This document shows positions 5,101 through 21,617 of a DNA stretch of 21,708 nt, one piece after another. Source of the stretch: a virus; the IMG/VR virus record IMGVR_UViG_3300042563_002444, positions 1-21,708 of that record. One strand, given 5' to 3'. The notes under the pieces were generated by a model. It saw only the letters and a program-made list of their open reading frames with translations. It made no database searches and had not been told where the DNA came from. The position numbers and the translations under genes are program-made. Position 1 is the stretch's first letter. Every line of letters starts with the position of its first letter.

Positions 5101-6027
5101 ATGTCATTTGACGCACTTAAAAAGAATCGTTCAGCCTCCCTCGGCAAATTGAACGCACAGCTCGAAAAAATCTCAACAAAGAGCTACTCAGATCCCAACG
5201 AAGGTAAAATGTGGAAACCAACCCGCGATAAAGCAGGTAACGGTTTTGCAATTATCCGTTTCTTGCCTGCTCCTAAAGGTGAAGAAATGCCATTTGTTCG
5301 CGTATGGGATCACGGTTTCCAAGGCCCAACAGGTCTCTGGTACATCGAAAACTCTCTCACTACCATCAATCAAGACGACCCTGTTTCAGAATACAACGGC
5401 AAGTTGTGGAATTCTGGCTTGGATTCAGACAAAGAAATTGCTCGCAAGCAAAAGCGCCGCCTGAAATACGTTGCTAACGTTTACGTTATTAAAGATTCTG
5501 GTAATGCAGATAACGAAGGCAAAGTATTCATGTTTTCCTTCGGCAAAAAAATCTTCGACAAACTTAACGATCTAATGAATCCACAGTTTGAAGATGAAGC
5601 ACCGGTCAACCCGTTTGATCTTTGGGAAGGTGCTAACTTCCGTTTGAAAATCCGTCAATTCGAAGGATACCCAAACTACGATAAATCTGAATTTGATGCA
5701 CCGGGTCCTTTGTCTGATGACGAAGCAGAACTCGAACGTATTTACAACTCAGAGCATGCATTGCAAGAATTGATTGATCCTAAGAACTTTAAGTCTTACA
5801 ATGAGTTGAAAGCAAAACTTTACCGTGTTCTTGCTCTTGATGAAGAAGCTAGTGCTCCTTCTAAAGCAGCAGATGACAACGAGTTTGATCTAAGCAGCAT
5901 GGGTAATTCAGAAAAGGCTGCTCCAACTCCTACTTTAAAAGAAGCAAAATCTACTTCTAAGAAACCTGTTATGACAGATGACGACGATGACGATCTTTCT
6001 ATCTTTCAGGAACTAGCTAATGGCTAA
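5101..6027 (+). CDS. 32: Single-stranded DNA-binding protein gp32 (zinc ligands missing)
   Basis: gp32 coats single-stranded DNA during replication, recombination and repair. The 308-residue protein has a basic N-terminal LAST-like segment (KKNRSAS, 7-13), the core WKPTRDKAGNGFAIIRFLPAP, VWDHGF-LWYIEN, the YVANVYVIKD segment and NEGKVFMFSFGKKIFDKL, all matching T4 gp32. The flexible C-terminal tail ends in DDDDDD-LSIF, the usual acidic partner-binding tail. The T4 zinc ligands are H64, C77, C87 and C90; here the histidine (H71) remains but the cysteines are S85, D93 and S96, and the whole protein has no cysteine. RBS AGGAG precedes the ATG. Overlaps the next gene by 8 bases. Confidence 0.93.
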   Translation: MSFDALKKNRSASLGKLNAQLEKISTKSYSDPNEGKMWKPTRDKAGNGFAIIRFLPAPKGEEMPFVRVWDHGFQGPTGLWYIENSLTTINQDDPVSEYNGKLWNSGLDSDKEIARKQKRRLKYVANVYVIKDSGNADNEGKVFMFSFGKKIFDKLNDLMNPQFEDEAPVNPFDLWEGANFRLKIRQFEGYPNYDKSEFDAPGPLSDDEAELERIYNSEHALQELIDPKNFKSYNELKAKLYRVLALDEEASAPSKAADDNEFDLSSMGNSEKAAPTPTLKEAKSTSKKPVMTDDDDDDLSIFQELANG

Positions 6028-8970: not shown

Positions 8971-8978
8971 TATAAATA
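8971..8978 (+). promoter_or_regulatory. T4-type late promoter (TATAAATA)
   Basis: A perfect TATAAATA lies right after the gp41 stop, with a start expected near 8985 and the first gene ATG at 9005. It marks the switch from replication genes to late virion genes and would drive 9005-12329 as one transcript. Confidence 0.85.
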
Positions 8979-9004: not shown

Positions 9005-9802
9005 ATGAAATCCTTTAAAGACTTTATTGGTGAAGAACTGGAGTTGCTTCTTATGAGCGTCGCGTCAGATAAGTATGAAAAAGATGTTGCAGATCAATTA
9101 AAAGATTTGGGCTATGATGCCTCAAGACCAAAGGTAGATTCTACTTATTCTGACGTTCTTGTTAAACACAAGGGTAAAAACGTGTGGATTGAAGTAAAAA
9201 TGAACCATACAGACAACCTTGGAAATACTCGAGCTTCATATGATGGCAAAAAATGGTTTTCATCACTAGAAAAAAGTGGCCCATTTGCAGGAAAACAAGG
9301 ACCGTTAAAAGTTTATATAGCAAAAATGCTTGATAAGCATGCTGATAAATTCGTAAAAGATATATTAAAAGCTACAGGAAAAACTAAGCTAAATACAAAC
9401 GTTGGTCCTCAAAAAACTGATAAAGATACTGTAAATCATGCTGAAATGAAAGCTTACATGAGCAAGCAAGCTGATCAGTATATTGTAACAGTACCAAACC
9501 AAGATTTAGGTAAAGTTGTTAGAGACCACTACGCTGGCGGCGGAAAAGCAGAACCAGTTTATTATCTACAAGCTGATGACGATTTTTATAGACTTAGCAA
9601 TGAGGATCCTCTTGGTATTGCAGCAGACGTTCCTATGTTTGGTGGTAAAGGCGATTTTAGAATGCGAGTTGGTATTCGTACAAGCCAATATGAAATTCAA
9701 CCAGAAGTTAAAGTAAAAACTATGGCTAATAGTCCGTACTCTCTTAAACCTGGAACTACAAAGAAAAACCCGTTCACACACCAGCGAGTTAGAAAAGTGT
9801 AA
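9005..9802 (+). CDS. Predicted virion-internal PD-(D/E)XK nuclease-like protein
   Basis: A 265-residue protein. Its first ten residues, MKSFKDFIGE, closely resemble the capsid-targeting peptide of T4 internal proteins (MKTYQEFIAE), which gp21 cuts after the last Glu; cleavage here is expected after E10. Behind this, YEKDVADQLKDLGYDAS, then D50 and IEVKM (E63, K65) form the D-x(n)-ExK core of PD-(D/E)XK nucleases. The conserved-looking stretch WIEVKMNHTDNLGN follows. The remainder (about 130-265) is unassigned. A late promoter stands directly upstream. I infer a nuclease packaged with the DNA, acting on host or competitor DNA; a repair or DNA-end-processing role is equally possible. The ribosome site is weak (GAAAG). 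Confidence 0.65.
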   Translation: MKSFKDFIGEELELLLMSVASDKYEKDVADQLKDLGYDASRPKVDSTYSDVLVKHKGKNVWIEVKMNHTDNLGNTRASYDGKKWFSSLEKSGPFAGKQGPLKVYIAKMLDKHADKFVKDILKATGKTKLNTNVGPQKTDKDTVNHAEMKAYMSKQADQYIVTVPNQDLGKVVRDHYAGGGKAEPVYYLQADDDFYRLSNEDPLGIAADVPMFGGKGDFRMRVGIRTSQYEIQPEVKVKTMANSPYSLKPGTTKKNPFTHQRVRKV

Positions 9803-11031
9803 TGTTATCATTTAAAAGTTACTTAGTTGAGTCTAAGAACACTCACATGGAGCACCTCGAGGATAACATCCTTAATGCAGGTGTAGATGGAACTCGTGAT
9901 TCTATTAACTTCCTGCGCGCGCTACGCGACATGCTTGCTGGTACTGCAAAATCAAAAGTAAACGTTACTGTTAAATGGGATGGCGCACCAGCTGTATTTG
10001 CTGGCATTGATCCATCAGATGGTAAGTTCTTTGTTGCTAAAAAGGGTATCTTTAATAAAAACCCAAAGGTATATAAAACATCAGCTGATGTAGATGCTGA
10101 TACTTCCGGTGATTTGAATACAAAATTAAAACTAGCGCTAGCTGAGTTACCAAAACTTGGCATTAAAGGCGTAGTACAAGGTGACTTTCTATATGCTAAA
10201 GAAGATCTTAAAGTGGTGGACATTGAAGGTGAACCACATATTACTTTCCATCCTAATACGATTGTTTATGCGGTACCTAAGAACTCAAAACTCGGTGCGG
10301 AAATACTCGGATCCAAAATCGGAGTGGTCTGGCACACTACATACCGAGGATCAAGTTTTGAAGAAATGTCTGCAAGCTTTGGAGAGGAGATTGCTTCTGG
10401 CCTCAAGAAAGTAAAAGGCGTTTGGTCGGTAGATGCATTATATAGAGATGTATCTGGCACAGCAAACTTTACAGCATCAGAAACTAAAGAAGTAACAGAC
10501 ATTCTTTCTCGAGCTGGAAAATTATTCAATACCATTAAAAAAGAAACATTTAATGGTATTTCAGACAACGAAGATACTCTAGTAAAAGTAAAAACATTTG
10601 TTAATTCTAAAATTCGTCAAGGCGAAAGAATTAAAAATACAAAAACGTTTGTAAGAGATCTAGAAAAATACATTGCAGATTATTACGATGCAGAAGCAAA
10701 TAAGCTTAAGACCGATAAAGGTAAAGCTAGTAAGATTGCAAAAAGAGATTCTACTTTAGAATATTTCAAAAAAACTCCGCCTGCACAAATTGTAGCTATG
10801 TTTGATTTGTATAATTTGATTATTGACGCAAAGCTTATGATTATTGGCAAGCTAGATAAAGCAAAAACTATTGGTACATTCCTAAAGACCGCTGACGGAT
10901 ATCAAGTAACAGAACAAGAAGGATTCGTTGCTATCGATAAGATGGGCAAAAACGCTGTTAAACTTGTAGATAGATTGGGATTTAGTAATGCTAACTTCTC
11001 AGACAAATATATCAAAGGATGGCAACGCTAA
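9802..11031 (+). CDS. Predicted virion-internal KxDG nucleotidyltransferase (ligase-like)
   Basis: A 409-residue protein starting MLSFKSYLVE, another T4-type capsid-targeting leader with a gp21-like site (LVE, cut after E10). The next part has the nucleotidyltransferase motif I of DNA/RNA ligases, VTVKWDGAPAVFAG (K58-W-D60-G61), where the lysine is the expected covalent AMP acceptor. It then shows KFFVAKKG (75-81) and VVQGDFLY (124-131, resembling the G-E/D motif of ligases), and KIGVVWHTTY. A clear motif V (EGvvvK) is not seen, so sealing activity is uncertain. The C-terminal 200 residues are helical and lysine-rich. The start overlaps the preceding stop (TAATG). Phage proteins of this kind recur in marine T4-like genomes without known role. 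Confidence 0.65.
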   Translation: MLSFKSYLVESKNTHMEHLEDNILNAGVDGTRDSINFLRALRDMLAGTAKSKVNVTVKWDGAPAVFAGIDPSDGKFFVAKKGIFNKNPKVYKTSADVDADTSGDLNTKLKLALAELPKLGIKGVVQGDFLYAKEDLKVVDIEGEPHITFHPNTIVYAVPKNSKLGAEILGSKIGVVWHTTYRGSSFEEMSASFGEEIASGLKKVKGVWSVDALYRDVSGTANFTASETKEVTDILSRAGKLFNTIKKETFNGISDNEDTLVKVKTFVNSKIRQGERIKNTKTFVRDLEKYIADYYDAEANKLKTDKGKASKIAKRDSTLEYFKKTPPAQIVAMFDLYNLIIDAKLMIIGKLDKAKTIGTFLKTADGYQVTEQEGFVAIDKMGKNAVKLVDRLGFSNANFSDKYIKGWQR

Positions 11032-12329
11032 TGGCTCAATTTAATAAAAACAATCACCTCTATTTAGAAAATAATAAATCTCTTTTCGAAGTAGTAATGC
11101 TTGCAGACCAATATGGAAACAATGTTGGTCCAGCAAATCCATCAGGAATGGCTGTTGATGCTTTTGGACGAGCAAGAGTTTCAACACCACTTACAATGTT
11201 TGATTCTTCGCATCGTTATAGAGATAACGGTCTATGGGACACGGCTGTTGTTGGTGGCGGAACAGCTTCTTTTTCTGCAAACGAAGGTCTTGTAAATCTT
11301 GTTGTTGATACTGCTGCAAACTCTGAAGTAATAAGAGAGACATCTATGGTGTTTTCTTACCAACCAGGTAAATCGTTGCAAACATTTAGTACGTTTGTGA
11401 TGAACACGGCAAAGGAAGGTCTTCGCCAAAGAGTTGGATATTTTGGTGCACAAAACGGCATATACCTAGAACTTGATGGAAGTGACTTATATTTCGTAAG
11501 AAGATCTTACAATAGTGGAGTTGCTGTTGATACTAGAATTCACAAGAACGACTGGAACATGGATTCTTTAGATGGTGCTGGACCATCTGGACTTACTCTT
11601 GATATATCTAAAGCGCATATTTTGTTCATCGACATAGAATGGTTAGGTGTAGGATCTGTCAGATGTGGGTTTGTAATAAATGGCGAATTTATACATGCTC
11701 ACAGTTTTCATCATGCAAACAGTATTACGTCAACATACATGACAACTGCTTCGCTTCCACTTCGTTATGAGATAAAAAATAATAGCGCGACAGGTTCATC
11801 AAGTACTCTTAAACAAATATGCTCTACGGTTATATCTGAAGGCGGTTACGAACTTAGAGGTACTCAACGAGCTGTCGGCACCGCTATTACAGCACCAAAA
11901 TCTTTAGCAACCGCTGGAACATATTATCCTGTTGTATCAATCAGACTTAAATCTACTGCATTAGACGCAGTTGTTATTCCAACTGCAGTAGCAGTAATGG
12001 GTGTAGCCACGGGTATATACTCATGGAGAATTATTGAAGGCGCAACCGTTACAACAGGTTCTTGGTCAGACCCAGGAGCAGATTCTTCAATTGAATACAC
12101 CCTTGCCGGAACTGCTGTTTCAGGTGGAAAAATATTAGCTAGCGGATATTTTACATCTAATACACAAGACGCACCCGCTATAAATATTTTTAGAGATGCT
12201 CTGTTTAAGTTTCAATTAAGAAGAAATGGATTAGCAGGTACACCTGTATCTCTAACGCTTGCGGTATCAGCATCAACTAATACTGAAGTAGTTCACGGTT
12301 CAATGGACTGGGAAGAAGTAACAAGATAA
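11031..12329 (+). CDS. Virion structural protein (tail or capsid surface)
   Basis: A 432-residue protein starting MAQFNKNNHLYLENN. The ATG at 11031 is used because AAAGGAT lies 10 bases ahead and the previous stop overlaps it (TAATG); an ATG at 11019 lies inside that ribosome site. The block DAFGRARVSTPLTMFDSSHRYRDNGLW (43-69) recurs in structural proteins of marine phages. The rest is Gly/Ser/Thr-rich beta structure with no cleavage-site repeats. The middle third (IYLELDGSDLYFVRRS ... WLGVGSVRCGFVINGEFIHAHSF) looks like a jelly-roll, lectin-like fold. It is the last gene before the terminator at 12354-12380. Tail-associated adhesin or capsid decoration is inferred. Confidence 0.65.
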   Translation: MAQFNKNNHLYLENNKSLFEVVMLADQYGNNVGPANPSGMAVDAFGRARVSTPLTMFDSSHRYRDNGLWDTAVVGGGTASFSANEGLVNLVVDTAANSEVIRETSMVFSYQPGKSLQTFSTFVMNTAKEGLRQRVGYFGAQNGIYLELDGSDLYFVRRSYNSGVAVDTRIHKNDWNMDSLDGAGPSGLTLDISKAHILFIDIEWLGVGSVRCGFVINGEFIHAHSFHHANSITSTYMTTASLPLRYEIKNNSATGSSSTLKQICSTVISEGGYELRGTQRAVGTAITAPKSLATAGTYYPVVSIRLKSTALDAVVIPTAVAVMGVATGIYSWRIIEGATVTTGSWSDPGADSSIEYTLAGTAVSGGKILASGYFTSNTQDAPAINIFRDALFKFQLRRNGLAGTPVSLTLAVSASTNTEVVHGSMDWEEVTR

Positions 12330-12346
12330 GATGTTTATAAATGAGT

Positions 12347-12354
12347 TATAAATA
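12347..12354 (+). promoter_or_regulatory. T4-type late promoter (TATAAATA) abutting a terminator
   Basis: A perfect TATAAATA at 12347-12354 lies in the 75-base gap, with a near copy TATAAATG at 12336-12343. Its expected start (about 12361) falls inside the left arm of the terminator hairpin, so transcripts made from here would lack most of that stem. It would drive the glycan genes from 12405. Confidence 0.7.
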
Positions 12355-12384
12355 AAAGGACGGCTTCGGCTGTCCTTTTTGTTT
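12354..12384 (+). terminator. Rho-independent terminator with UUCG loop
   Basis: AAAAGGACGGC (12354-12364) pairs with GCTGTCCTTTT (12369-12379), an 11-bp stem with one G-U pair, closed by a UUCG tetraloop and followed by T-rich TTTTTGTTT. This is a textbook intrinsic terminator ending the operon 9005-12329. Confidence 0.88.
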
Positions 12385-12404
12385 ACTAAAATAGGATTAA
12401 TATT

Positions 12405-12965
12405 ATGGGAATGATTAAAGACCGCGGGCATGACGGCGGAAATACGTATAGATGGTCTACATTAGAACGGTTTGTAAAAGAAAACAACTGGACCATTGGC
12501 GCCGAACTTGGTGTATGGTATGGTGAAACTTTTAAACATCTAGTTAATAATTGTCAAAATCTTCGTTTGTTTGGTGTTGACTTATATGCACAGCAAGAAT
12601 CAAACGGCGGGCCACAAAAATATATTCCAGGTGAAGATGGTCTTGCGTGGGAGCATGAAAGATATTATGCAGATGTAAAAGCATTTTGTGATACTACAAA
12701 TGGAAGAGCAACTATTTACCGTGGATTTACGAATGACGCGTCAAAGCTAATTGAAGATGAAAGCTTAGATTTCGTATTCATAGATGCAGATCATTCATTT
12801 GAAGGTGTAGATGCAGACATTATACATTGGATGCCAAAAGTTAAAAAAGGTGGATACGTAATTGGTCACGATATACATTGGCCAACAGTAAAATCTGCAG
12901 TAGAAAAACATTTTGGTCAAGATTACAAAAAAGAACAAGATTTTATTTGGTATGTGGTGAAATAA
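12405..12965 (+). CDS. Class I SAM-dependent methyltransferase
   Basis: A 186-residue methyltransferase. Motif I is IGAELGVWYGETFKHL (31-46), followed by FGVDLYA (D59, ribose-binding position) and LDFVFIDADHSFEGVDADI (121-139), the pattern of sugar and small-molecule O-methyltransferases of the methyltransf_24 type; later VKKGGYVIGHDI. TAGGAT lies upstream of the ATG at 12405; a second ATG two codons later is possible. Together with the FkbM and two glycosyltransferase genes behind it, it probably modifies a glycan. The substrate is unknown. Confidence 0.75.
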   Translation: MGMIKDRGHDGGNTYRWSTLERFVKENNWTIGAELGVWYGETFKHLVNNCQNLRLFGVDLYAQQESNGGPQKYIPGEDGLAWEHERYYADVKAFCDTTNGRATIYRGFTNDASKLIEDESLDFVFIDADHSFEGVDADIIHWMPKVKKGGYVIGHDIHWPTVKSAVEKHFGQDYKKEQDFIWYVVK

Positions 12966-13591
12966 TGAATAATCAATTAGCTATGAGAAAAGTAAACATA
13001 GAAGGTGTAGATCAGCTTCTATGGCCAATTCGAGATTTTAATGCATTTCATTGGCCACTCCAAGATTGGATTCGTGACCGTGAATCATTTCTTAAATATG
13101 TAAAAGCTCGAGATGTGGTTGTACAAGCCGGTGGATGCTGTGGCATGTATCCAAGATTCTACAAAAATCATTTTGATAGAGTATATACATTTGAACCAGA
13201 TCCAGTTAACTATTATTGTTTAGAAAGAAACTGTGCTGTTCCTGGAATTTATCACCAAAACGCAGCATTAGGCTCTTCTAAAAAATTAGTAAGTCTTGAT
13301 TCACCAACAGCACCCGGTGAAGAAAATAACGTTGGTATGTATACAGTAAATGAAAATCCTGGCGCAGTAATGATGATTACTATAGATAGCTTAGGTCTTG
13401 ATAAATGCGATCTAATTCATTTTGACCTTGAAGGTTATGAACCGGAAGCATTAAAAGGTGCTATCAATTTAATTGAAAAATGCAATCCAGTTGTTATTAC
13501 CGAAAGAGAATGTGGTAGAGAATTCTTAGAATCGATTGGTTATAAGTTAGTTAAAAAGACTTCAATGGATGCGATTTTTGTGAGAGATTAA
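12965..13591 (+). CDS. FkbM-type methyltransferase
   Basis: A 208-residue protein starting MNNQLAMRKVN; the ATG at 12965 overlaps the previous stop (TAATG), and the longer frame to 12878 is a shadow. FkbM hallmarks: DVVVQAGGCCGMYPRFY (50-66) as the SAM motif, VYTFEPDPVNYYCLERN (73-89), and DLIHFDLEGYEPEALKGA with the typical D-x-EG-E. FkbM enzymes O-methylate sugars or polyketides. In this context a sugar on a phage or host glycan is the likely target. Confidence 0.82.
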   Translation: MNNQLAMRKVNIEGVDQLLWPIRDFNAFHWPLQDWIRDRESFLKYVKARDVVVQAGGCCGMYPRFYKNHFDRVYTFEPDPVNYYCLERNCAVPGIYHQNAALGSSKKLVSLDSPTAPGEENNVGMYTVNENPGAVMMITIDSLGLDKCDLIHFDLEGYEPEALKGAINLIEKCNPVVITERECGREFLESIGYKLVKKTSMDAIFVRD

Positions 13592-13593
13592 TT

Positions 13594-14244
13594 ATGAATA
13601 TTGAAAAGAAGTTAACTCAGATTTGGATTGGACCAAAGCCTGCTCCTATGGCATGGTTAAATACTTGGAAAGAAAAGCATCCTGATTGGGAATATTCTAT
13701 CTTTACTGATGAGATGCTTAGGGCTCGTAAATGGCACAACCAACATCTTATAAATCATTATTATAATACGCGCAAATGGCCAGGTGTATCAGATTTAATT
13801 CGTTATGAATTGCTATATGAGAATGGTGGCTTTTGGCCAGAAGCTGATATGGTATGCTTAGAAAATACCGATGAATTGTTTACAGCACCATCTGATCATG
13901 CCTACTCTTGTTATGAAAATGAAGCAGGCCGCCATAATTTTATTCAACCTATTATGGCTTGCAACCCAGGTAATGAATTTGTTAAACACGTTATTGATAC
14001 GTTACACAAAGTTCAGCCACATCAGTTAAGCCCAGAACCATTTAGATCAACCGGTAATGCATTTTTAGCAGATCACGTTGTTAATTGGAAACACAAACTT
14101 ACTATTTGGCCATCACATTACTTTATTCCACTATTTTATCATGGCAGTGCTACGAGATATAATGGACCAGATAAGGTATATGCAGATCACAAGTGGGGTT
14201 CTACTGGTCATGCAAATAGTGTTTCATATGATAAGGCAATATAA
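13594..14244 (+). CDS. Glycosyltransferase, GT32/Och1-like (sugar-binding DXD family)
   Basis: A 216-residue enzyme with the family pattern KKLTQIWIGPKPAPMAWLNTWKEKHPDWEYSIFTDE (5-40), then GVSDLIRYELLYENGGFWPEADM (64-86). In this family the metal- and sugar-nucleotide-binding DXD lies after GG-(I/F); here it reads E83-A-D85, a conservative change. The family transfers sugars from NDP-sugars. The C-terminal part is His- and Trp-rich. It begins two bases after the FkbM gene stop. Activity is likely but the E-x-D variant deserves care. Confidence 0.75.
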   Translation: MNIEKKLTQIWIGPKPAPMAWLNTWKEKHPDWEYSIFTDEMLRARKWHNQHLINHYYNTRKWPGVSDLIRYELLYENGGFWPEADMVCLENTDELFTAPSDHAYSCYENEAGRHNFIQPIMACNPGNEFVKHVIDTLHKVQPHQLSPEPFRSTGNAFLADHVVNWKHKLTIWPSHYFIPLFYHGSATRYNGPDKVYADHKWGSTGHANSVSYDKAI

Positions 14245-14247
14245 ATT

Positions 14248-14940
14248 ATGCAATCGATTAAAGCTCACATTTTAAAAATTGACAATCCTATCTCCAATGA
14301 GTATGCAAAGACTTGCTCAGACTCTTGTGATAAGATAGGTTTATCCTGGACTTACTTTAATGGCTATCATAAAATGGATGGTAGAATGGCTTTTGGTAAG
14401 ACAGGAATTAAGAATTTACCAACCTCAGAGTATCGTTATACAGAAAATGTGTCAGCTGCAGACAAAGCAATGTGCTGTACGGCAGGTCATTTTAGCATTT
14501 GGAAGAACATAGCAGACGGGCCAGAAGATGTCGGTATTGTTTTAGAACATGATGCATTGATGCTACAACCGTTAATGATAGACATTCCAGAAAACAGAAT
14601 TGTAGTATTGGGTTATAAGGTAACAGATCCTCAGAAATATAATCATGTTAAAGCAGGTCCACCGCAGCAAATTATTGATATAATTGGACATGAAGGTGCT
14701 CATGCATACGCAATTACAAAAAAGACTGCCAGATATCTTATTGATGAACTTGAAAGACAGGGAATTTACAGTGCAGTAGATAACGATTACTTTTTAGTCA
14801 ATCAAAGAAGAACAGCTGTGCCATTATCAATCGCTTCTCCAACACCAGCGATAGGATGGTTGAGACAATCTACTATTTGGAGCGGTTCTGCAGCCAGAAA
14901 CTACCCATTTATACCTTCTTTTCATGAAAATTATAAATAA
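14248..14940 (+). CDS. Glycosyltransferase, GT25-like (LPS biosynthesis type)
   Basis: A 230-residue protein. The segment KAMCCTAGHFSIWKNIADGPEDVGIVLEHDAL (73-104) matches the GT25 pattern A-x(2)-SH-x(3)-W-x(n)-LIEDDA, with E100-H101-D102 in place of EDD. GAHAYAITKKTARYLIDEL matches the later G-x-AY-ITK-gA--L block. GT25 enzymes add galactose-type sugars to lipooligosaccharide in bacteria. The ATG at 14248 follows the previous stop closely. The stop codon lies inside the late promoter TATAAATA (14932-14939). Probably acts in sequence with the other glycan enzymes. Confidence 0.75.
   Translation: MQSIKAHILKIDNPISNEYAKTCSDSCDKIGLSWTYFNGYHKMDGRMAFGKTGIKNLPTSEYRYTENVSAADKAMCCTAGHFSIWKNIADGPEDVGIVLEHDALMLQPLMIDIPENRIVVLGYKVTDPQKYNHVKAGPPQQIIDIIGHEGAHAYAITKKTARYLIDELERQGIYSAVDNDYFLVNQRRTAVPLSIASPTPAIGWLRQSTIWSGSAARNYPFIPSFHENYK
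14932..14939 (+). promoter_or_regulatory. T4-type late promoter (TATAAATA)
   Basis: A perfect TATAAATA overlaps the last codons of the GT25-like gene. Start expected near 14946, with TAGGAT and the ATG at 14970 following. It would drive the polyprotein and the three genes behind it. Confidence 0.83.
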
Positions 14941-14969
14941 AGCAAATATTACAATCTTAGGATTAACTA

Positions 14970-17705
14970 ATGGCAACGCCACCAGATAAAAAGAAGTTAA
15001 AAGGTTTCAAGGAATTTGATCCTTCTAAATACATCGATACCGAACCAACTATTGAAGAAGCTGTTATGAAGAACACAGTAGTGATTTCGTACGGTCGAAT
15101 GAACCCTATTACCGTAGGTCATGAAAAACTTATAGATAAAGTTACAGATGAAGCTGGCCGTCTAAAAGCAGATCCTATGGTCTTCTTGACTCACACACAA
15201 GATGCAAAAAAGAATCCTTTATCTTATGATGATAAGGTTAAATTTGCAAAGAAAGCATTTGGCAATACTATCCAGAAGTCTAATGCTAAAACTATTATTG
15301 ATGTTGCAAAATCTCTTACTGGCAAATACAAGAATTTAGTAATGGTAGTTGGTTCTGATAGAGTAGACGAATTTCAAAAATTGCTATCTAAATATAATGG
15401 TAAAGAGTTTAACTTTGAAAACATTAATATAATTTCTGCTGGAGAAAGAGATCCAGACGCAGAAGGTGTTGAAGGCATGTCTGCTTCTAAAATGAGATCA
15501 TTAGCAGCAGCTAATAATACTAAAGACTTTTCAAAAGGTTTACCAAAAAAATTACAATCATCTGCACCTACTATTATGGCAGCAGTACGTAAAGGCATGA
15601 ATATGACAGAAGAAACTATAAACGAAGAGATTGACGAAGCTTTAAATCAACAGCAAAGACGTAAAAGATCTATTGCAATGAGAAAAAACAGATTTAAACT
15701 ACAACGAGGTAGAGAAAAATCTTCAAGAAAAACCGCATCTCGTGAAGTATTAATGAAAAGAGCTAGAAAAGCTGCTATTGGTATTTTAAAGAAAAAGTTT
15801 TCTAAAAATAGACCTTACGAAGAATTGTCCGCTGGAGAAAAACAAGTTATAGATCAGCGTATAGAAAAGATTAGTAAAGCTCGTATTGCAGCTATAGCCC
15901 GTAAACTATTGCCAAAGATTAAACAAGGCGAAAGAGATCGTCGCGCTTCTAAGAATGCTCCACCGCCTGCTGCAGCACCTAAACCAGCACCTAAGAACGA
16001 GAGCATTGAAGAGGCATCATATAAAGATTCAAGAACTCTTAAAAGACCTCATCAATTAATGGACTCTAATAATAAGCCAAAGTTTGATGCTCGCTTTCGT
16101 ATGTTTAAGAAAAAGAATGTAAATGAAAGTGTTGATAATTTAGCGCAAGAATTAGTAGATTTAATTGAATCAACTGAACAATTTGTTGAAGAATTTGGTT
16201 CTGCACCTTTTAAAGATTTAAAATCGGCGGTCAAACATGCTAGCGATAAAGTTAAAACCCACCGTGACCACGAAGACGGTATCGAAGTATATAAACACAA
16301 AGGTGGTTATGACGTCAACCACACCATGAATTCGAGTGGCAGAAATTCTTTAAAGAGTTCTGGCGCTAAACATTTGGGAACAGTTTATAGAGATAAAAAA
16401 TTTAATGTTACTCATAATATTAAAGAAGCTAAAATTCCTGATGCATTAGATCCAAACAAAACGTTAAAACAAGCAATCGCTGCTCGCCGATTTGATAAAG
16501 ACAATGATGGTGATACTGATAAGTTTGATAAACAAGATATACCAGACGAAATTACTAGCACAGAAAAAACTGATCAGACTAGTAAGATGTTAAAGAAATA
16601 TGCAGATGAAAAGCGACATAGTAAAAAAGGTGTTGCTTATGAAGAAGTTGATCTTGACGAAGTTTCTATGAATACGTTAAACAACTATACTGCTGCAGCA
16701 AATAAAGATTATGATAAAGCCCATGCTGCCGGCGATCATAAGAAAACATTTAAAAGAGCGCTTGGCTTGATGAAAGCTTCCGGTAAAAAAATTGGAAAAG
16801 ATGCAGAAAATATTAGCAAAGCACTAAAAAGAGAAGAAATAGAAGAAGCTGTTGATAAGTCAAGTGACGTGTATAAGCATTACACAGAACTTAAAAAGAA
16901 ATCTGTTAAAGAACTTCGCGATACAATTAAGGGTAGTCGTAAAGTGGTAGACGTTAGTGGCTACGACAAGCACGGCGCAATATCTGATATTTTACGTAGT
17001 AGACACGGAAATAAAAAGGTTGCTGCTGCAATGGGTTTAGATGAAGCTAACTTTGCTGATACTATGAAAAAAGCAGTTGCTGCACATGAAAGAGGCGATC
17101 ATAAAAAAGCAGCGTATCATCTTAATAATGCTAAAACTGCTCGTTATGCGATGAAGTCAACTGAAATTTCTAAGCATAAAGATCTTCTTGATAAGTATAA
17201 AGAACTTAGAGATGTGCATGAAGCTACTTTTAAAGTAGATATTGAAGGCTTGCCTGCGATGTTTATTGATGCTGGAAGCGCGTCGCAAGTTAAAAAGACA
17301 TTGCGTCAAATGCTTAAAAAACCAGATGATACAATCAAAGGTGTTGATAGAGTACAACCAGCTGAAGTCAAAAAGCATTTCCGTTTAAAAGCTCTTGGCA
17401 AAGACGAAGAACAAATAGATGAAGCAACGTATAAAGTAGACATTGAAGGTTTACCGTCAGTGTTTATTGATGCTGGAAGTGAACCACAAGTTAAAAAGAG
17501 CTTACGTCAAATGCTTAAAAAACCAGATGATAGAATTAAAGGCATTGATAGAGTGCAACCGCATGAAGTTGTAAAGCATTTTCGTTTAAAAGCTCTTGGT
17601 AAAGAAGACTCGTCTGAACCAGTTGAAGAAGAAGCTGGTGCTGGCGAAGAAGGTACTAATAAGCTAGTTAAGAAATACAAAAAAGATACGCCTAATTGTT
17701 CCTAA
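14970..17705 (+). CDS. Virion polyprotein with N-terminal cytidylyltransferase-like domain
   Basis: A 911-residue, very lysine-rich protein. The leader (1-30) contains KGFKEF and ends TIEE before A31, a gp21-like site. Residues 33-190 form a nucleotidyltransferase: ISYGRMNPITVGHEKL (39-54; HxGH-type site), VMVVGSDRVDEF and GMSASKMR (169-176; ISxxKxR-type motif). Next is a basic domain (about 226-330: RRKRSIAMRKNRFKLQRGRE, KRARKAAIGILKKK). Further segments end in [I/L]-x-E followed by a small residue: after E223, E348, E486, E564, E626, E692 and E818. Residues 509-520 (DKDNDGDTDKFD) are a clear EF-hand-type calcium loop. Two copies of a 61-residue unit lie near the C-terminus. Behind a late promoter, it is probably packaged in the head and cut into pieces. 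The enzyme's substrate is unknown; NAD or CDP-compound chemistry is possible. Confidence 0.72.
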   Translation: MATPPDKKKLKGFKEFDPSKYIDTEPTIEEAVMKNTVVISYGRMNPITVGHEKLIDKVTDEAGRLKADPMVFLTHTQDAKKNPLSYDDKVKFAKKAFGNTIQKSNAKTIIDVAKSLTGKYKNLVMVVGSDRVDEFQKLLSKYNGKEFNFENINIISAGERDPDAEGVEGMSASKMRSLAAANNTKDFSKGLPKKLQSSAPTIMAAVRKGMNMTEETINEEIDEALNQQQRRKRSIAMRKNRFKLQRGREKSSRKTASREVLMKRARKAAIGILKKKFSKNRPYEELSAGEKQVIDQRIEKISKARIAAIARKLLPKIKQGERDRRASKNAPPPAAAPKPAPKNESIEEASYKDSRTLKRPHQLMDSNNKPKFDARFRMFKKKNVNESVDNLAQELVDLIESTEQFVEEFGSAPFKDLKSAVKHASDKVKTHRDHEDGIEVYKHKGGYDVNHTMNSSGRNSLKSSGAKHLGTVYRDKKFNVTHNIKEAKIPDALDPNKTLKQAIAARRFDKDNDGDTDKFDKQDIPDEITSTEKTDQTSKMLKKYADEKRHSKKGVAYEEVDLDEVSMNTLNNYTAAANKDYDKAHAAGDHKKTFKRALGLMKASGKKIGKDAENISKALKREEIEEAVDKSSDVYKHYTELKKKSVKELRDTIKGSRKVVDVSGYDKHGAISDILRSRHGNKKVAAAMGLDEANFADTMKKAVAAHERGDHKKAAYHLNNAKTARYAMKSTEISKHKDLLDKYKELRDVHEATFKVDIEGLPAMFIDAGSASQVKKTLRQMLKKPDDTIKGVDRVQPAEVKKHFRLKALGKDEEQIDEATYKVDIEGLPSVFIDAGSEPQVKKSLRQMLKKPDDRIKGIDRVQPHEVVKHFRLKALGKEDSSEPVEEEAGAGEEGTNKLVKKYKKDTPNCS
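17220..17603 (+). repeat. Tandem coding duplication, two 61-residue units, 201-base period
   Basis: Unit 1 (17220-17402) and unit 2 (17421-17603) encode EAT[F/Y]KVDIEGLP..FIDAGS..QVKK.LRQMLKKPDD.IKG.DRVQP.EV.KHFRLKALGK, differing at few residues but at many third codon positions. The duplication is therefore not very recent, or the units were exchanged with relatives. The units are separated by a short DEEQID linker carrying an IDE|A cleavage-like site. Confidence 0.9.
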
Positions 17706-17706
17706 T

Positions 17707-18738
17707 ATGATAAGCTTTAAACAGTATACTCAAATAAACGAGGGTGTTAACGACCCTGCTATTTTTAAAGCAGTGTTTTTAGCCGGTGGTCCTGGTTCTG
17801 GTAAATCATTTGTTGTGGGCAAAACTGCATTACAACCAATGGGATTTAAGTTAATTAACTCTGACCCAGCCTTTGAATCTGCTTTGAAAAAAGCAGGTTT
17901 GTCTACTTCGCCAGAAGATATTGCATCAGATAGAGGTCAAGAAGCACGAGCTAAAGCAAAGTCTTTAACTAAGAAGCAAATGGAACTTGCGCTTGGTGGT
18001 AGATTAGGTTTAGTTATCGATGGTACTGGTAAAGATCTTGATAAGATTATGCTTCAAGCAATTGCGTTGCGCAAGGTTGGATATGATACAGCAATGATAT
18101 TTGTTAATACAGATGAAGCTACAGCACAAGGTAGAAATCAAAAGAGAGCAAGAACATTGCCTGCCAGCATGGTTTCTAAAATGTGGAATGAAGTGCAGAC
18201 TAACCTTGGAGCTTTTCAAATATTTTTTGGAAACAGTTTTCATATCATTGATAACTCAGAAAAGTCAGACTATCAATCACAAATTAATACTGTATATAAA
18301 AGAATTCTTGGTTGGTCTAGAAAACTTCCTACTAATTCAATGGCTTCTTCATGGATTAAAAGCCAAAGAAAAGGAATGAACGAAGATATTACACAAGTAC
18401 AAGTAAATGATTTAGAAAAATTTGCTGATAAACTACTTAACAAATATGACATTGATATCGAATTCACTAGACATTTTGTTGATCGTTTAAATGACCCGCG
18501 CAACACTCCAGATATTAAAATTTCCGAATTGCAAAAACTGTTTAAGAAGATAGAAAAAACTAAAGGTAAATCTTTAAAGTCGCTTGGGCCAGACATTGAA
18601 GTAGTTTTAAAAGATATGGAAACAGATTTAAATCTTCCTGTTATTATTCGCTATAATAATGGAGAATTTGAAGTCACTCACAAAACAATTATGCGTAAAA
18701 AGAATTTCGCTACTACTAACCAGAAGGTGGAGATATGA
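17707..18738 (+). CDS. Predicted virion-internal zeta-toxin-like P-loop kinase
   Basis: A 343-residue protein. The leader MISFKQYTQINE resembles the T4 capsid-targeting peptide, with an INE|G cut site after E12. Then FLAGGPGSGKSFVVGK (25-39) is a Walker A motif (K33, S34), with LINSDPAFE, GLVIDGTGKD and an arginine-rich lid NQKRARTLPASMVSKMWNEV as in zeta-toxin / AAA_33 kinases. Zeta toxins phosphorylate UDP-N-acetylglucosamine; other members act on small molecules or nucleic acid ends. The C-terminal third (about 230-343) is separate: DIEFTRHFVDRLNDPRNTPDI-ISELQKLFKK ... RKKNF, a His/Arg pattern that could suggest a nuclease, but I cannot assign it. The start is one base after the previous stop; the end overlaps the next gene (ATGA). 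Confidence 0.68.
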   Translation: MISFKQYTQINEGVNDPAIFKAVFLAGGPGSGKSFVVGKTALQPMGFKLINSDPAFESALKKAGLSTSPEDIASDRGQEARAKAKSLTKKQMELALGGRLGLVIDGTGKDLDKIMLQAIALRKVGYDTAMIFVNTDEATAQGRNQKRARTLPASMVSKMWNEVQTNLGAFQIFFGNSFHIIDNSEKSDYQSQINTVYKRILGWSRKLPTNSMASSWIKSQRKGMNEDITQVQVNDLEKFADKLLNKYDIDIEFTRHFVDRLNDPRNTPDIKISELQKLFKKIEKTKGKSLKSLGPDIEVVLKDMETDLNLPVIIRYNNGEFEVTHKTIMRKKNFATTNQKVEI

Positions 18739-19625
18739 TTAGGTTTAAAGAGTTTCACGAAGCATGCTGGGACACTCACAAGCAAATTGGCATGAAGAAA
18801 AAAGGCAATCGCATGGTGCCTGATTGTGTTCCAAAGAATGAAGAAACCGAATTAGAAGAAACTTGGTCGAAGACCGGTAAAGAAGCTACTCATATACCAA
18901 CAGGTCAAAAAACTTACGAATACGCCAAGCTTGATAAAGAAGGCAGACCTACTGGTAAGAGACATTATCGCAATGCACAAGGTAAGGTAATGGGAGAATC
19001 TGTAGAAGAGTCTAAAGATTTTAGCAAATATATTATGAAGGCAACTAAAACTGAACCTAAAATAGTTCGCAAAACCAATCCGGCCGGAAGAACTACTGAC
19101 CACGTCGAATACGAAGTTCACGGTACACTATCTTCACATAAGAGAACTTTTAAATCTAAAAAAGAAGCTGAAGCATATTTCAATACTGTTAAAGAAGATG
19201 TTGAACTTGACGAAGCTATTAAGCTTAACACAAAAGTTAAGATCCACCACCCAGGTAAGTCATATCATGGTGAAGTTGGACATGTAGGCGAGATTAGACA
19301 TGGATTATTTAAAGGCGCGCCAAAGAAATATACAGTCGATTATGGTGATCGTAAGTCTATTCAATTAGATAAAGCAAATATAAGATTGCACAAAGAAGAA
19401 GCAGATTTAGAAGAAGGTGCTGGCGGTTCTGAAACTTGGGAAGCTGGTTATAAACGTCGTGTTGTTAAAACAACTAGTGCTGACCATAAAGAAAAAGGTT
19501 ACAACTGGCGTATTAAAGGCAAAGAACGTCCAGAAATTTCTATTAAACTATATAAAGAAAAGCCATCACAAGCCGAGTTTAATAACCAAATGAGAAGAGT
19601 TGCCGGTCACGAATTTGGAGGTTAA
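18735..19625 (+). CDS. Predicted virion-internal multi-cassette protein
   Basis: A 296-residue, strongly charged protein without an enzyme domain. The leader MIRFKEFHE fits the capsid-targeting pattern (cut after E9). It is followed by ACWDTHKQIGMKKKGNRMVPDCVP, a block I recall from other marine T4-like phages. Cleavage-like sites LEE|T (42), VEE|S (92), LDE|A (160) and LEE|G (227) divide it into segments of 33-68 residues. The segment 161-227 (KLNTKVKIHHPGKSYHGEVGHVGEI ... YTVDYGDRKSIQL) looks like a small SH3/KOW-type beta barrel. Segment 93-160 resembles a small alpha-beta unit. The ATG overlaps the previous stop (ATGA) after AAGGTGGAG. Likely packaged and processed; functions of the pieces unknown. 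Confidence 0.65.
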   Translation: MIRFKEFHEACWDTHKQIGMKKKGNRMVPDCVPKNEETELEETWSKTGKEATHIPTGQKTYEYAKLDKEGRPTGKRHYRNAQGKVMGESVEESKDFSKYIMKATKTEPKIVRKTNPAGRTTDHVEYEVHGTLSSHKRTFKSKKEAEAYFNTVKEDVELDEAIKLNTKVKIHHPGKSYHGEVGHVGEIRHGLFKGAPKKYTVDYGDRKSIQLDKANIRLHKEEADLEEGAGGSETWEAGYKRRVVKTTSADHKEKGYNWRIKGKERPEISIKLYKEKPSQAEFNNQMRRVAGHEFGG

Positions 19626-19626
19626 T

Positions 19627-19947
19627 GTGAAAACATTTAGACAACTAATAGAAGAAATATACGAAGAAAAAGACTCTCGCCTTGCTAATGCTGGTGTAGA
19701 AGGTTTTAATAAAGCTAAAAGAACACCGGGCCATCCAACAAAAAGTCATATTGTTGTAGCAAAAGATGGTGACAAAATTAAAACTATTCGCTTTGGTGAA
19801 CAAGGTGCTTCTACTGCTGGCGATCCTAAACCAGGTGAATCAGCCAAGATGAAAGCAAAGCGCAAATCTTTTAAAGCCCGTCACGGTAAAAATATTGCCA
19901 AGGGTAAGATGAGTGCTGCTTATTGGGCAGATAAAGAAAAGTGGTAA
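19627..19947 (+). CDS. Small basic virion-internal protein, conserved in marine phages
   Basis: A 106-residue protein with GTG start at 19627, four bases after GGAGGT (19617-19622). The ATG at 19600 lies inside the previous gene and gives no leader peptide. With the GTG start, the N-terminus reads MKTFRQLIEE, the closest match in this window to the T4 leader MKTYQEFIAE. The body, PGHPTKSHIVVAKDGDKIKTIRFGEQGASTAGDP then GESAKMKAKRKSFKARHGKNIAKGKMSAAYWADKEKW, belongs to a family I recognise from many marine myoviruses without known function. It is very basic, fitting a DNA-bound head protein. Confidence 0.72.
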   Translation: MKTFRQLIEEIYEEKDSRLANAGVEGFNKAKRTPGHPTKSHIVVAKDGDKIKTIRFGEQGASTAGDPKPGESAKMKAKRKSFKARHGKNIAKGKMSAAYWADKEKW

Positions 19948-19953
19948 TCTTTT

Positions 19954-19961
19954 TATAAATA
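19954..19961 (+). promoter_or_regulatory. T4-type late promoter (TATAAATA)
   Basis: A perfect TATAAATA sits in the 50-base gap after the 19627-19947 gene; transcription expected from about 19968, ahead of the ATG at 19998. Confidence 0.85.
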
Positions 19962-19997
19962 TCGTTAGTAAAACAATAATAAACACGAAAGCGTAAA

Positions 19998-21617
19998 ATG
20001 CAAAGTTTTAAGAAGTATATCAGTGATATGCCAGAATTGGACGAAGGTAAAGGCAAACCTGGTCTATGGGCTAATATTCACGCTAAAAGAAAGCGTGGAG
20101 AGCGTCCGGCTAAACCAGGCGAAGAAGGTTATCCTAAGACTCTTGATATCGAAGAAAGCGGCAAGGGTTATCAACCCGGATGGATGTTAAAGAAAGATCC
20201 AGAGCTTGCTAAAAAACTTAAAGATAAGATTGATTTAGCTAAAAAGCGTCAAGCATCTTATGGCAACCCAGCGGCTGGTAAATCCGTTAAAGAAAATAAA
20301 GATGAACACGATATTAACTCTTTACAAAAACATTTTGGACCAGCTGTCGCATATGACGCAGCAAGTCATGGTCCAGCAATGATGAAGAGAAAAGATATTT
20401 CTGGAAAATCACACACTTTAATAAAACAATCTAATGGAAAATATAAATCTGTTAAAGAAGATGTTGAGCAACTAGATGAAGCAGTTGATCCTAGTGAAAT
20501 TGCTGGTAATCCAAAAGCTTACGGCGTAGATACTGTAAAAAAAGCATACTACCACAAAAAAGCCTCTACTTCAGACAAAGAATCTTTAGCGCGCCATCTA
20601 GATAGATATCATGGTCATAAAGAATGGCGCAAACCGCTTGTAAAAGAAGAAACTGAGCTGCAAGAATTATCAAAAGAAACTTTAGGTTCGTATAAGCATA
20701 AGGCTGAACTATCAATTCCTAAAGATGATCGCGAATATGCTAATCGCTCAAAAGGTATTGATAAAGCAGAAAAGAAACTTAAAGAATCTGCTATCAAAGT
20801 TGGCGATACTGTTGTTTATAACAAAAATAAAACTGCCGAAACAGTCGGTAAAGTACACAAGATTGAAGCTAACGACTATATTTTACACCACACTAGAACA
20901 AATACTTATCACAGAGTTCCAAAGAAAGGCTCTGAACTGGCAGAATCAGTAGAACAACTTGACGAGCTTTCACCAAACCTATTGCACAGATATGTTAAGA
21001 AAGCTACCGGCAACATGGGTATGCATGCCGTAGATCATGGCAAATACGGTGATCAGCAAAAAGACAAGAAGAGTCTTAATAAAGCTATTAAGCGTTCAGA
21101 TGGTATTGCTTCTGCTTCAGGCCGTATGGCTGATAAAGCTAATAAGAACGAAGAGTTTACACCTGCTGAAAAAGCCGCATTTCTTGCAGCTGCTAATAAA
21201 AAAGCATCACTAGATTATTGGAAGACACACGCAGAACTAAAGAAGAACGATCCTAGAGTATCAAAGACTCCTAAGAAAGAAAGTGTTGATCTTGACGAAT
21301 CAGAAATTAATGACTTAGCTGCTCAATACATTAACGAAAACAATATTACTCTAGAACAACTAGAGAATATGACTGAAGCAGAATTAAACGAGTTAATCGG
21401 TGCTGCTATTGGCGGTGCTTTTAAACTTGGTGCGAAGGCTGCGGTTGGAGCTACTCGTTTAGCCGGTCGAGCAATTAACAGAATGACCACTTCTGGAAGA
21501 GCAGATGCTGCTGAAAAGAAAGCATCTACTTTAGAAAAAAAGAATGCAGACCGTGAGAGAATCAGAGCTGCCCAGGATCGTTTGCGTAAAGCAAAAGAAG
21601 CCGCAAGTAAAAGATAA
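19998..21617 (+). CDS. Predicted virion-internal polyprotein with repeated cassettes and glycine-rich tail
   Basis: A 539-residue, highly charged protein with leader MQSFKKYISDMPELDE (cut expected after E16). The following GLWANIHAKRKRGERPAKPGEEGYPKT is a block I know from other phages. Cleavage-like sites follow at IEE53, LDE161, LQE223, LKE263, LDE323, LDE434 and LNE465. Cassettes 224-263 and 324-386 both start LS-x3-L-x2-Y-x3-A and end near KG/DGI-x2-A, so they are related. Residues 265-310 look like a small SH3-type barrel (IKVGDTVVYNKNKTAETVGKVHKIE). The segment 466-492 (LIGAAIGGAFKLGAKAAVGATRLAGRAI) is a Gly/Ala-rich hydrophobic stretch that could enter membranes. The rest of the tail is a charged coiled coil. 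Own late promoter upstream; weak ribosome site. Confidence 0.65.
   Translation: MQSFKKYISDMPELDEGKGKPGLWANIHAKRKRGERPAKPGEEGYPKTLDIEESGKGYQPGWMLKKDPELAKKLKDKIDLAKKRQASYGNPAAGKSVKENKDEHDINSLQKHFGPAVAYDAASHGPAMMKRKDISGKSHTLIKQSNGKYKSVKEDVEQLDEAVDPSEIAGNPKAYGVDTVKKAYYHKKASTSDKESLARHLDRYHGHKEWRKPLVKEETELQELSKETLGSYKHKAELSIPKDDREYANRSKGIDKAEKKLKESAIKVGDTVVYNKNKTAETVGKVHKIEANDYILHHTRTNTYHRVPKKGSELAESVEQLDELSPNLLHRYVKKATGNMGMHAVDHGKYGDQQKDKKSLNKAIKRSDGIASASGRMADKANKNEEFTPAEKAAFLAAANKKASLDYWKTHAELKKNDPRVSKTPKKESVDLDESEINDLAAQYINENNITLEQLENMTEAELNELIGAAIGGAFKLGAKAAVGATRLAGRAINRMTTSGRADAAEKKASTLEKKNADRERIRAAQDRLRKAKEAASKR

Follow-up and report, generated by a model that had tools for sequence, protein, structure and literature searches.

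What purpose is served by a short N-terminal peptide that recurs on proteins with otherwise dissimilar sequences? This question is raised by the IMG/VR virus record IMGVR_UViG_3300042563_002444, a stretch of 21,708 nucleotides (hereafter, the window), which is the sole fragment of this phage analysed here. Behind its helicase gene lies a block of genes, six of which encode proteins with much the same start, read in a first-pass annotation as a capsid-targeting leader of the bacteriophage T4 type. The shared leader is confirmed. Its T4-type interpretation is supported by the spacing of the key residues on unrelated bodies, by mixed codon use, by the presence of a gp21-type head protease and of the gp23 cleavage site in related phages, and by the virions of the phages S-CREM2 and S-SCSM1. 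These leaders are very likely capsid-targeting propeptides of the kind found on T4 internal proteins, with the long modular proteins encoded among them representing polyproteins of head cargo.

All six open reading frames are present in the window, each starting where the first-pass annotation had placed it, and all six products carry the targeting residues, Phe at position 4 and Phe, Tyr, or Leu at position 7. The common pattern proposed for them applies in full to five proteins, in which [LI]xE (Leu or Ile, any residue, Glu) is reached by residue 16; the leader of the protein encoded at position 18735 fits only in part, because its first [LI]xE is found at residues 40 to 42. The likeness to the T4 internal proteins IPI, IPII, and IPIII was correctly described for IPII and IPIII, which start with MKTYQEFIAE, but not for IPI, which starts with MKTFKEFTSTTTPVSTITE. 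A looser pattern, derived from the published T4 work (an aromatic residue at position 4, a hydrophobic one at position 7, and [LI]xE by about residue 22), is matched by 4 of the 30 called genes of the window versus 0.07 expected from internal positions; the start at 9005, which also fits this pattern, was not chosen by the gene caller behind this count. The bodies of these proteins had been considered unrelated, and this holds at the BLAST level, since comparison of the leader-less bodies of the six proteins and of the one encoded at 14970 gave no E value better than 0.018 (14970 versus 19998). The 14970 gene is a seventh candidate, unlisted in the same annotation, but its longer leader does not have the T4 spacing.

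In T4, the first 10 residues of IPIII are sufficient for targeting; residues 4 and 7 serve mainly in targeting and residues 8 and 10 in processing, with gp21 cutting after L/I-x-E (available part of PMC9026906). The positions retained in 32 aligned DUF6267 leaders, including that of the window, are those of this published map: Phe4 is found in 28 sequences (Leu in the other 4), Phe/Tyr7 in 30, Leu/Ile8 in 31, [LI]xE at positions 8 to 10 in 31, and Glu10 in all 32; positions 2, 3, 5, 6, and 9 are variable. The looser pattern is present in 53 of the 65 nonredundant members of the DUF6267 family and in 5 of the 13 members of the 19627 family. In the 9005 family, 13 of the 23 aligned rows have [LIM]xE directly ahead of the conserved body, and the other 10, including that of the window, have [LI]xE at positions 8 to 10.

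Among 1674 proteins from the window and 130 related viral-contig loci (after removal of near-duplicates at 90%), the looser pattern is found at 130 N termini versus 5.9 expected from its occurrence at 243,554 internal positions; counted by family, it is found in 37 of 763 versus about 2.7. This pattern does give false positives: five of its nine matches in T4 are other proteins, such as the product of the lysozyme gene e. Exact T4 spacing (Phe4, Phe/Tyr7, Ile/Leu8, and Glu10) was scored in 6015 proteins from the window, the loci L101 to L372, and eight phage genomes, and was found at 201 N termini versus 2.3 expected, spread over 28 body clusters, two of which hold 124 of these cases. Given this concentration and the weak deduplication (only proteins that shared identical last 50 residues were removed), these counts are not independent, and family counts are therefore given as well. 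Related contigs are likewise not independent samples, and gene starts were assigned with a simple script. Exact spacing is absent from 351 genes of phiM12, 857 of Atu_ph07, and 195 of HTVC008M, which indicates that N termini in general do not have this pattern. In T4, it is found in IPII, IPIII, and 61.1, with IPI caught by the looser pattern. The 61.1 protein (54 residues; L418:267-431), encoded beside the primase gene, starts with MKTFKEFIKE, an exact capsid-targeting pattern.

Leader-bearing proteins have been found in virions of two relatives. The published virion list of S-CREM2, a member of Kyanoviridae, comprises 52 of its 219 proteins (available part of PMC10665884). The looser pattern, which was applied first, selects five S-CREM2 proteins, four of them on this list, versus 48 of the 214 others (p 0.012); exact spacing selects gp6, gp14, gp136, and gp154, all four of them listed, versus 48 of the 215 others (p 0.003). 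Of these, gp6 is an S-adenosylmethionine lyase (PF23780); gp14 is kinase-like according to the available part of PMC10665884, its Pfam matches being below the cut-off; gp136 starts with MQTFSMFFSE, with FSE where [LI]xE would be expected; and gp154 is a cytidylyltransferase of the same family as the 14970 protein of the window. Another member of this family, the S-SCSM1 NMNAT, annotated as a virion protein, starts with MKSFLQFLKE, followed by Ala. The same family has been reported in the virions of S-SM1 (Sullivan et al., available part of PMC3037559) and of S-CBWM1, as cited in the available part of the S-SCSM1 paper (PMC9602691). Among the named-phage starts examined, a T4-type leader was seen on eight cytidylyltransferases (from S-CREM2, S-SCSM1, S-B68, S-CRM01, S-SRM01, S-SM2, P-TIM68, and P-SSM2), with Phe in place of Leu/Ile before x-Glu in S-CRM01 and P-TIM68. 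It was not seen on those of HTVC008M, C48C1 (annotated start), or phiM12 (gp159, read as a cytidylyltransferase relative), nor on the 14970 protein. Two potential virion sources were set aside, the S-SM1 annotation (one of four stretches), in which the mass-spectrometry labels were not clear, and the S-CREM1 paper, the available part of which held no usable list (PMC9964418). In S-CREM2 gp12 (L412:7704-10313), a virion protein annotated as Cas9-like, in which Pfam names no family, LRFASFMAE followed by Ala is found ∼15 residues past the annotated start, a displacement that resembles the one in the 14970 protein.

The protease that such leaders would require is widespread in these phages. Of the 23 relatives' records searched, 19 contain the gp21 (PF03420) family and 19 the gp23 (PF07068) family, and the four records with no match are fragments of 72-99 kb. 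At the position of the T4 gp23 cut (Glu65), L-x-E is present without exception in the 21 sequences aligned, among which are T4 gp23 and gp24, and the next residue is mostly Ala or Thr. Head targeting by the leader is well supported by these data.

The same [LI]xE motif recurs inside longer proteins of the window, with 9 candidate sites in the 911-residue protein encoded at 14970, 3 in the 296-residue protein at 18735, and 10 in the 539-residue protein at 19998, many of them of the ELDE-then-Ala kind. In the 14970 protein, the site at residue 486 (NIKE, then AKIPDALDPN; nucleotides 16427/16428) matches a stand-alone leader gene in locus L104, and each of the two 60-residue tandem copies directly follows an xxE, namely VHE before ATFKV (17223) and IDE before ATYKV (17424). 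The kinase-type protein of the window, in which MISFKQYTQINE is followed by GVNDPAIF, provides an example of such interchange between leaders and internal sites: elsewhere, the same module is internal and follows LELEE, LLDE, ALNE, or FDLDE (with GVNDPA, GVNDPS, GVHDPS, and GVYDPA), and five of the six kinase junctions are exact.

For each of 313 leader proteins, the 80 residues that follow the predicted cut were sought inside other proteins, with 5702 non-leader starts serving as controls and each 25-residue neighbourhood shuffled 200 times. An exact [LI]xE precedes the module at 140 of 815 distinct junctions versus 13.4 in the shuffles (largest, 24), compared to 24 of 1136 control junctions (shuffles, 13.0; largest, 23). 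An earlier count with a laxer start agrees (139 exact sites among 945 junctions; control, 27 of 1410). Given Glu at P1, Leu or Ile is found at P3 in 140 of 272 cases but at P2, P4, and P5 in only 26, 22, and 19, respectively. At least one exact junction was found in 16 of 25 leader families versus 2 of 77 control families, although 19 of the 20 exact control sites come from a single family (KLKKSD) whose sites are also among the leader junctions. The targeting aromatic residues are kept at only 11 of 225 internal sites, so that it is the cutting site, rather than the tag, that is retained internally. Recurrent sites of this kind would be expected in a polyprotein that the head protease processes, and several of them lie at module borders, as predicted for a substrate that is cut more than once. 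From their sequences, the 14970, 18735, and 19998 proteins look like polyproteins cut by this protease. No description of head cargo made as polyproteins, or of a polyprotein combined with a prohead protease, was found in searches of the open-access literature. In most of the 80 retained loci, the part that matches best is the last module of the 18735 protein (about residues 231-296; 19425-19622), often with 76-95% identity.

Such a system can be expected to operate as follows. Leader proteins would be made late, and each enzyme would dock to the scaffold core inside the prohead via leader residues 4 and 7. A gp21-type prohead protease would then cut after [LI]xE, and the enzyme so released would stay free within the DNA-filled head and could exit with the DNA at infection. 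In the 14970, 18735, and 19998 proteins, a single leader or targeting site would bring a chain of mostly basic modules into the head, where the same protease would separate them at internal acidic [LI]xE sites that are followed by Ala, Gly, or Ser. For the phage of the window itself, docking, cleavage after Glu, head location, and injection would all follow this scheme.

Several observations weigh against this interpretation. The 18735 leader lacks a near [LI]xE, and the 14970 protein has no canonical leader. HTVC008M encodes gp21, yet exact-spacing leaders are absent from its proteins, and most of the five looser matches there do not resemble leaders. In S-CREM2, the looser match gp92 was undetected in the virion and 48 detected proteins carry no leader; carry-over is possible in virion mass spectrometry, as stated by the authors of that study (available part of PMC10665884), and presence in a mass-spectrometry list proves neither location nor cleavage. 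Control junctions are also somewhat above their shuffles, both in the exact count given above and within three residues (161 versus 86.5). Finally, the concentration of exact-spacing cases in 2 of the 28 clusters, along with the probable splitting of some single-member clusters from larger ones (e.g., the DUF6267 fragment in L335), would agree with chance or gene-family kinship, i.e., with a few homologous proteins that have a common start. The many further clusters, the absence of clear BLAST kinship among the window bodies, and the family counts speak against kinship alone, and chance similarity is ruled out by the internal-position and shuffle controls, which leaves this explanation with a negligible probability. 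Nor is the shared start at all likely to be a DNA or mRNA signal, such as one for late translation or a repressor site. The codon TTT is indeed used for Phe4 at a frequency of 0.76 versus 0.61 in the background, and GAA for Glu10 at 0.81 versus 0.72, but synonymous codons are mixed, Phe interchanges with Tyr and Ile with Leu, the peptide is also found in S-CREM2 with its 47.9% G+C, and the site recurs inside proteins; codon use thus gives no support to a signal at the RNA level.

Mass spectrometry registers presence in the virion and not position, so the leader might send proteins to the tail, neck, or outer head, or serve as an assembly helix, rather than as an interior capsid tag. This is improbable, as the leader matches the interior tag of T4 position by position, the site is of the head-protease kind, and several bodies look like enzymes rather than structural parts. 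Somewhat more credible, albeit still unlikely, is that the leader does target the head while the internal [LI]xE sites are uncut acidic linkers left by gene fusion. These sites do lie in acidic stretches, with Glu enriched about 4-fold at P7 to P4, and some of them are plain fusion remnants that keep a whole leader (SFKSYINE, RFKQYLSE). However, the excess of exact sites was measured against composition-preserving shuffles, Leu/Ile is enriched at P3 only, and 214 of the 225 sites lack the targeting residues yet have [LI]xE. Processing of head-targeted chains at both leader and internal sites remains the preferred interpretation. The T4-type reading of the first-pass annotation is well supported, and the system, a variant of the known T4 mechanism, extends it to enzymes and to apparent polyproteins of marine phages.

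The features of the window are listed in Table 1. Its helicase loader was recognized through phrog_269, and its replication genes are of the T4 type; the genes at 5101, 6349, and 7541 are read as gp32, UvsX, and gp41 from their open reading frames and the gene order of HTVC008M. The late promoter of T4 is TATAAATA. The window contains six such boxes, every one of them on the plus strand, versus a both-strand expectation of 2.47; six are reached in 5 of 100 shuffles. The first-pass annotation had leader genes in operons opened by this box, and the plus-strand boxes at 8971, 14932, and 19954 do head three tight runs that hold all six leader genes, but only two of these genes (9005 and 19998) have the box directly 5′. 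In the wider set of relatives, 45 of 311 leader genes have the box in the 90 nucleotides ahead of them, versus 365 of 5654 other genes. This placement is consistent with late expression, although the signal is modest, within the window alone as well. In the window, a gene in the same run as the leader genes encodes a virion structural protein that has no leader (11019-12329; phrog_1645, E value 2e-142), and between the leader genes (12405-14940) lie two methyltransferase-like genes, a glycosyltransferase-like gene, and one weakly matching glucosyltransferases.

Table 1. Leaders, cargo genes, candidate cleavage sites, and late-type boxes of the window
Feature	Positions	Strand	Details
TATAAATA, T4 late-promoter type	8971..8978	+	ahead of 9005
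PD-(D/E)XK nuclease-like protein, HhaI/Hjc-like fold	9005..9802	+	265 residues
Leader MKSFKDFIGE	9005..9034	+	start of the 265-residue nuclease-like protein
DUF6267 protein, nucleic-acid-ligase-like	9802..11031	+	409 residues; PF19782, E value 3e-113
Leader MLSFKSYLVE	9802..9831	+	start of the DUF6267 protein
TATAAATA, T4 late-promoter type	14932..14939	+	ahead of the gene run 14970-19947
Candidate polyprotein, cytidylyltransferase/NMNAT-type plus further modules	14970..17705	+	911 residues
Candidate seventh, longer leader MATPPDKKKLKGFKEFDPSKYIDTEPTIEE (then A)	14970..15059	+	911-residue protein; departs from T4 spacing
Nine candidate internal [LI]xE sites of the 14970 protein	15060..17423	+	after residues 30, 219, 223, 348, 486, 564, 626, 692, 818
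Tandem 60-residue module copies in the 14970 protein	17223..17603	+	50/60 identical
AAA_33/zeta-toxin-type kinase plus second domain	17707..18738	+	kinase, residues about 24-159; second domain, 227-341
Leader MISFKQYTQINE	17707..17742	+	start of the kinase-type protein
Modular protein	18735..19625	+	296 residues; candidate sites ELEE then T, ELDE then A, DLEE then G, ends 18860, 19214, 19415
Partial leader MIRFKEFHE	18735..18761	+	F4 and F7 kept; first [LI]xE at residues 40-42
Cargo protein	19627..19947	+	106 residues
Leader (V)KTFRQLIEE	19627..19656	+	GTG start, GGAGG just upstream
TATAAATA, T4 late-promoter type	19954..19961	+	ahead of 19998
Candidate polyprotein	19998..21617	+	539 residues; 10 candidate [LI]xE sites, the first ending the leader; include DVEQLDE then A, SVEQLDE then L
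Leader MQSFKKYISDMPELDE	19998..20045	+	start of the 539-residue protein

Several of the leader-bearing proteins resemble enzymes. In the 9005 protein, Asp50, Glu63, and Lys65 are invariant in 23 aligned rows, and its structural model (predicted local distance difference test score [pLDDT], 87) best matches HhaI (Z score, 9.5; 177 residues aligned, root mean square deviation [rmsd] 4.1, 14% identity), followed by Hjc resolvases (7.5); Foldseek alone gave an E value of 0.026 at best. With its D...ExK residues and modelled fold, this protein appears to belong to the restriction-type PD-(D/E)XK nucleases. The DUF6267 domain, found in 451 of 50,697 phage records, has its best relatives, among the 60 of 451 matches listed (spread over the ranking), in C48C1 (55%) and then HTVC008M (42%), both from Kyanoviridae. 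In its 32 aligned rows, Lys58-x-Asp60-Gly61 (K58WDG), Glu373-Gly374-x-Val376, and Lys387 are invariant; KxDG, EGxV, and Lys387 are presumably motifs I, IV, and V of covalent nucleotidyltransferases. A second-look structure list for its model contained RNA and DNA ligases in 48 of the 50 rows shown, with a best Z score of 7.8 (195 residues aligned, rmsd 4.9), values below 8 being compatible with a common arrangement only; Foldseek alone gave no match at an E value of 0.001 or better. DUF6267 is probably a polynucleotide-ligase-type nucleotidyltransferase. An open-access full-text search retrieved no paper on DUF6267 or DUF6321.

The 14970 protein is assigned to the cytidylyltransferase/NMNAT type by PF01467 (E value 1.3e-4, residues 41-147), phrog_3041, and phrog_395, and the kinase-type 17707 protein has a weak match to a polynucleotide kinase profile (E value 2e-4). 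A sequence search of the Protein Data Bank returned no relative of the latter at an E value of 0.01, and the DUF6267 and 14970 matches were no better than 0.2. In Sinorhizobium and Flavobacterium phages, the C-terminal domain of the 17707 protein (18385-18729) occurs with no kinase attached; phiM12 has it at the end of a 602-residue protein that is read as cytidylyltransferase-like. In Atu_ph07, nine tandem proteins (L007:340-9608) start with M[KR]W-x-[QD]-L-[TN]-E, several have a YRGM stretch, and the last is fused to a 17707-type kinase. They gave no exact matches, Pfam was silent in two of the three scanned, and they were not counted as a leader case; they may possibly form an amplified effector family that bears another type of leader.

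In relatives, leader families include an HD phosphohydrolase (PF13328) and a protein that combines a weak polynucleotide kinase match with an FDIDDTL stretch, presumably HAD-like; 7 of the 10 leader families scanned had no Pfam match at an E value of 0.01. The combination of a kinase, a ligase, and phosphatases among the predicted cargo suggests involvement in RNA or DNA end repair. It is conceivable, if rather doubtful, that the heads carry a ready-made kit for nucleic acid and NAD repair and attack, partly as polyproteins cut by the head protease into free basic modules, and that these enzymes work on the incoming genome, or on its behalf, ahead of any phage gene expression. As a tentative list, this kit might include the ligase-like DUF6267 protein, the kinase, the restriction-type nuclease, the NMN-type adenylyltransferase, and the HD and HAD phosphatase-like proteins.

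Known head systems share parts of this arrangement. T4 IPI, IPII, and IPIII likewise have an N-terminal peptide of 10-19 residues with aromatic residues 4 and 7, Ile/Leu8, and Glu10 on unrelated bodies, TATAAATA boxes upstream, and a gp21-type protease, which the relatives studied here share. However, T4 internal proteins are small, whereas here several bodies are recognizable enzymes or long modular chains; the leaders are also distributed in Kyanoviridae and their kin, occur on more families, and have their site reused internally. The motif and propeptides of phiKZ and SPN3US differ from the T4 10-mer. These phages have diverged gp21 kin that similarly cut after Glu, with multi-site propeptides; T4 Alt, a head-packaged ADP-ribosyltransferase cut at both ends, is another packaged enzyme with a short propeptide; and the T4 core proteins gp22, gp67, and gp68 are cut by gp21 several times per chain (available part of PMC9026906). 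The pieces of these core proteins, however, are mostly removed scaffold, in contrast to the conserved modules seen here, some of which stand alone with leaders in other phages.

Cyanophage virions have been reported to contain cytidylyltransferase/NMNAT and other enzymes, for which the available parts of the respective papers offer no route of entry into the head (PMC10665884, PMC3037559, and PMC9602691); an open-access search for "capsid targeting" in cyanophages returned only a T4 review. The leader described here supplies such a route and gives a rule by which the head cargo of a widespread group of marine phages could be predicted from the sequence. It also points to head cargo that is produced as polyproteins and suggests that, together with their DNA, these phages bring an enzyme toolkit into the cell.

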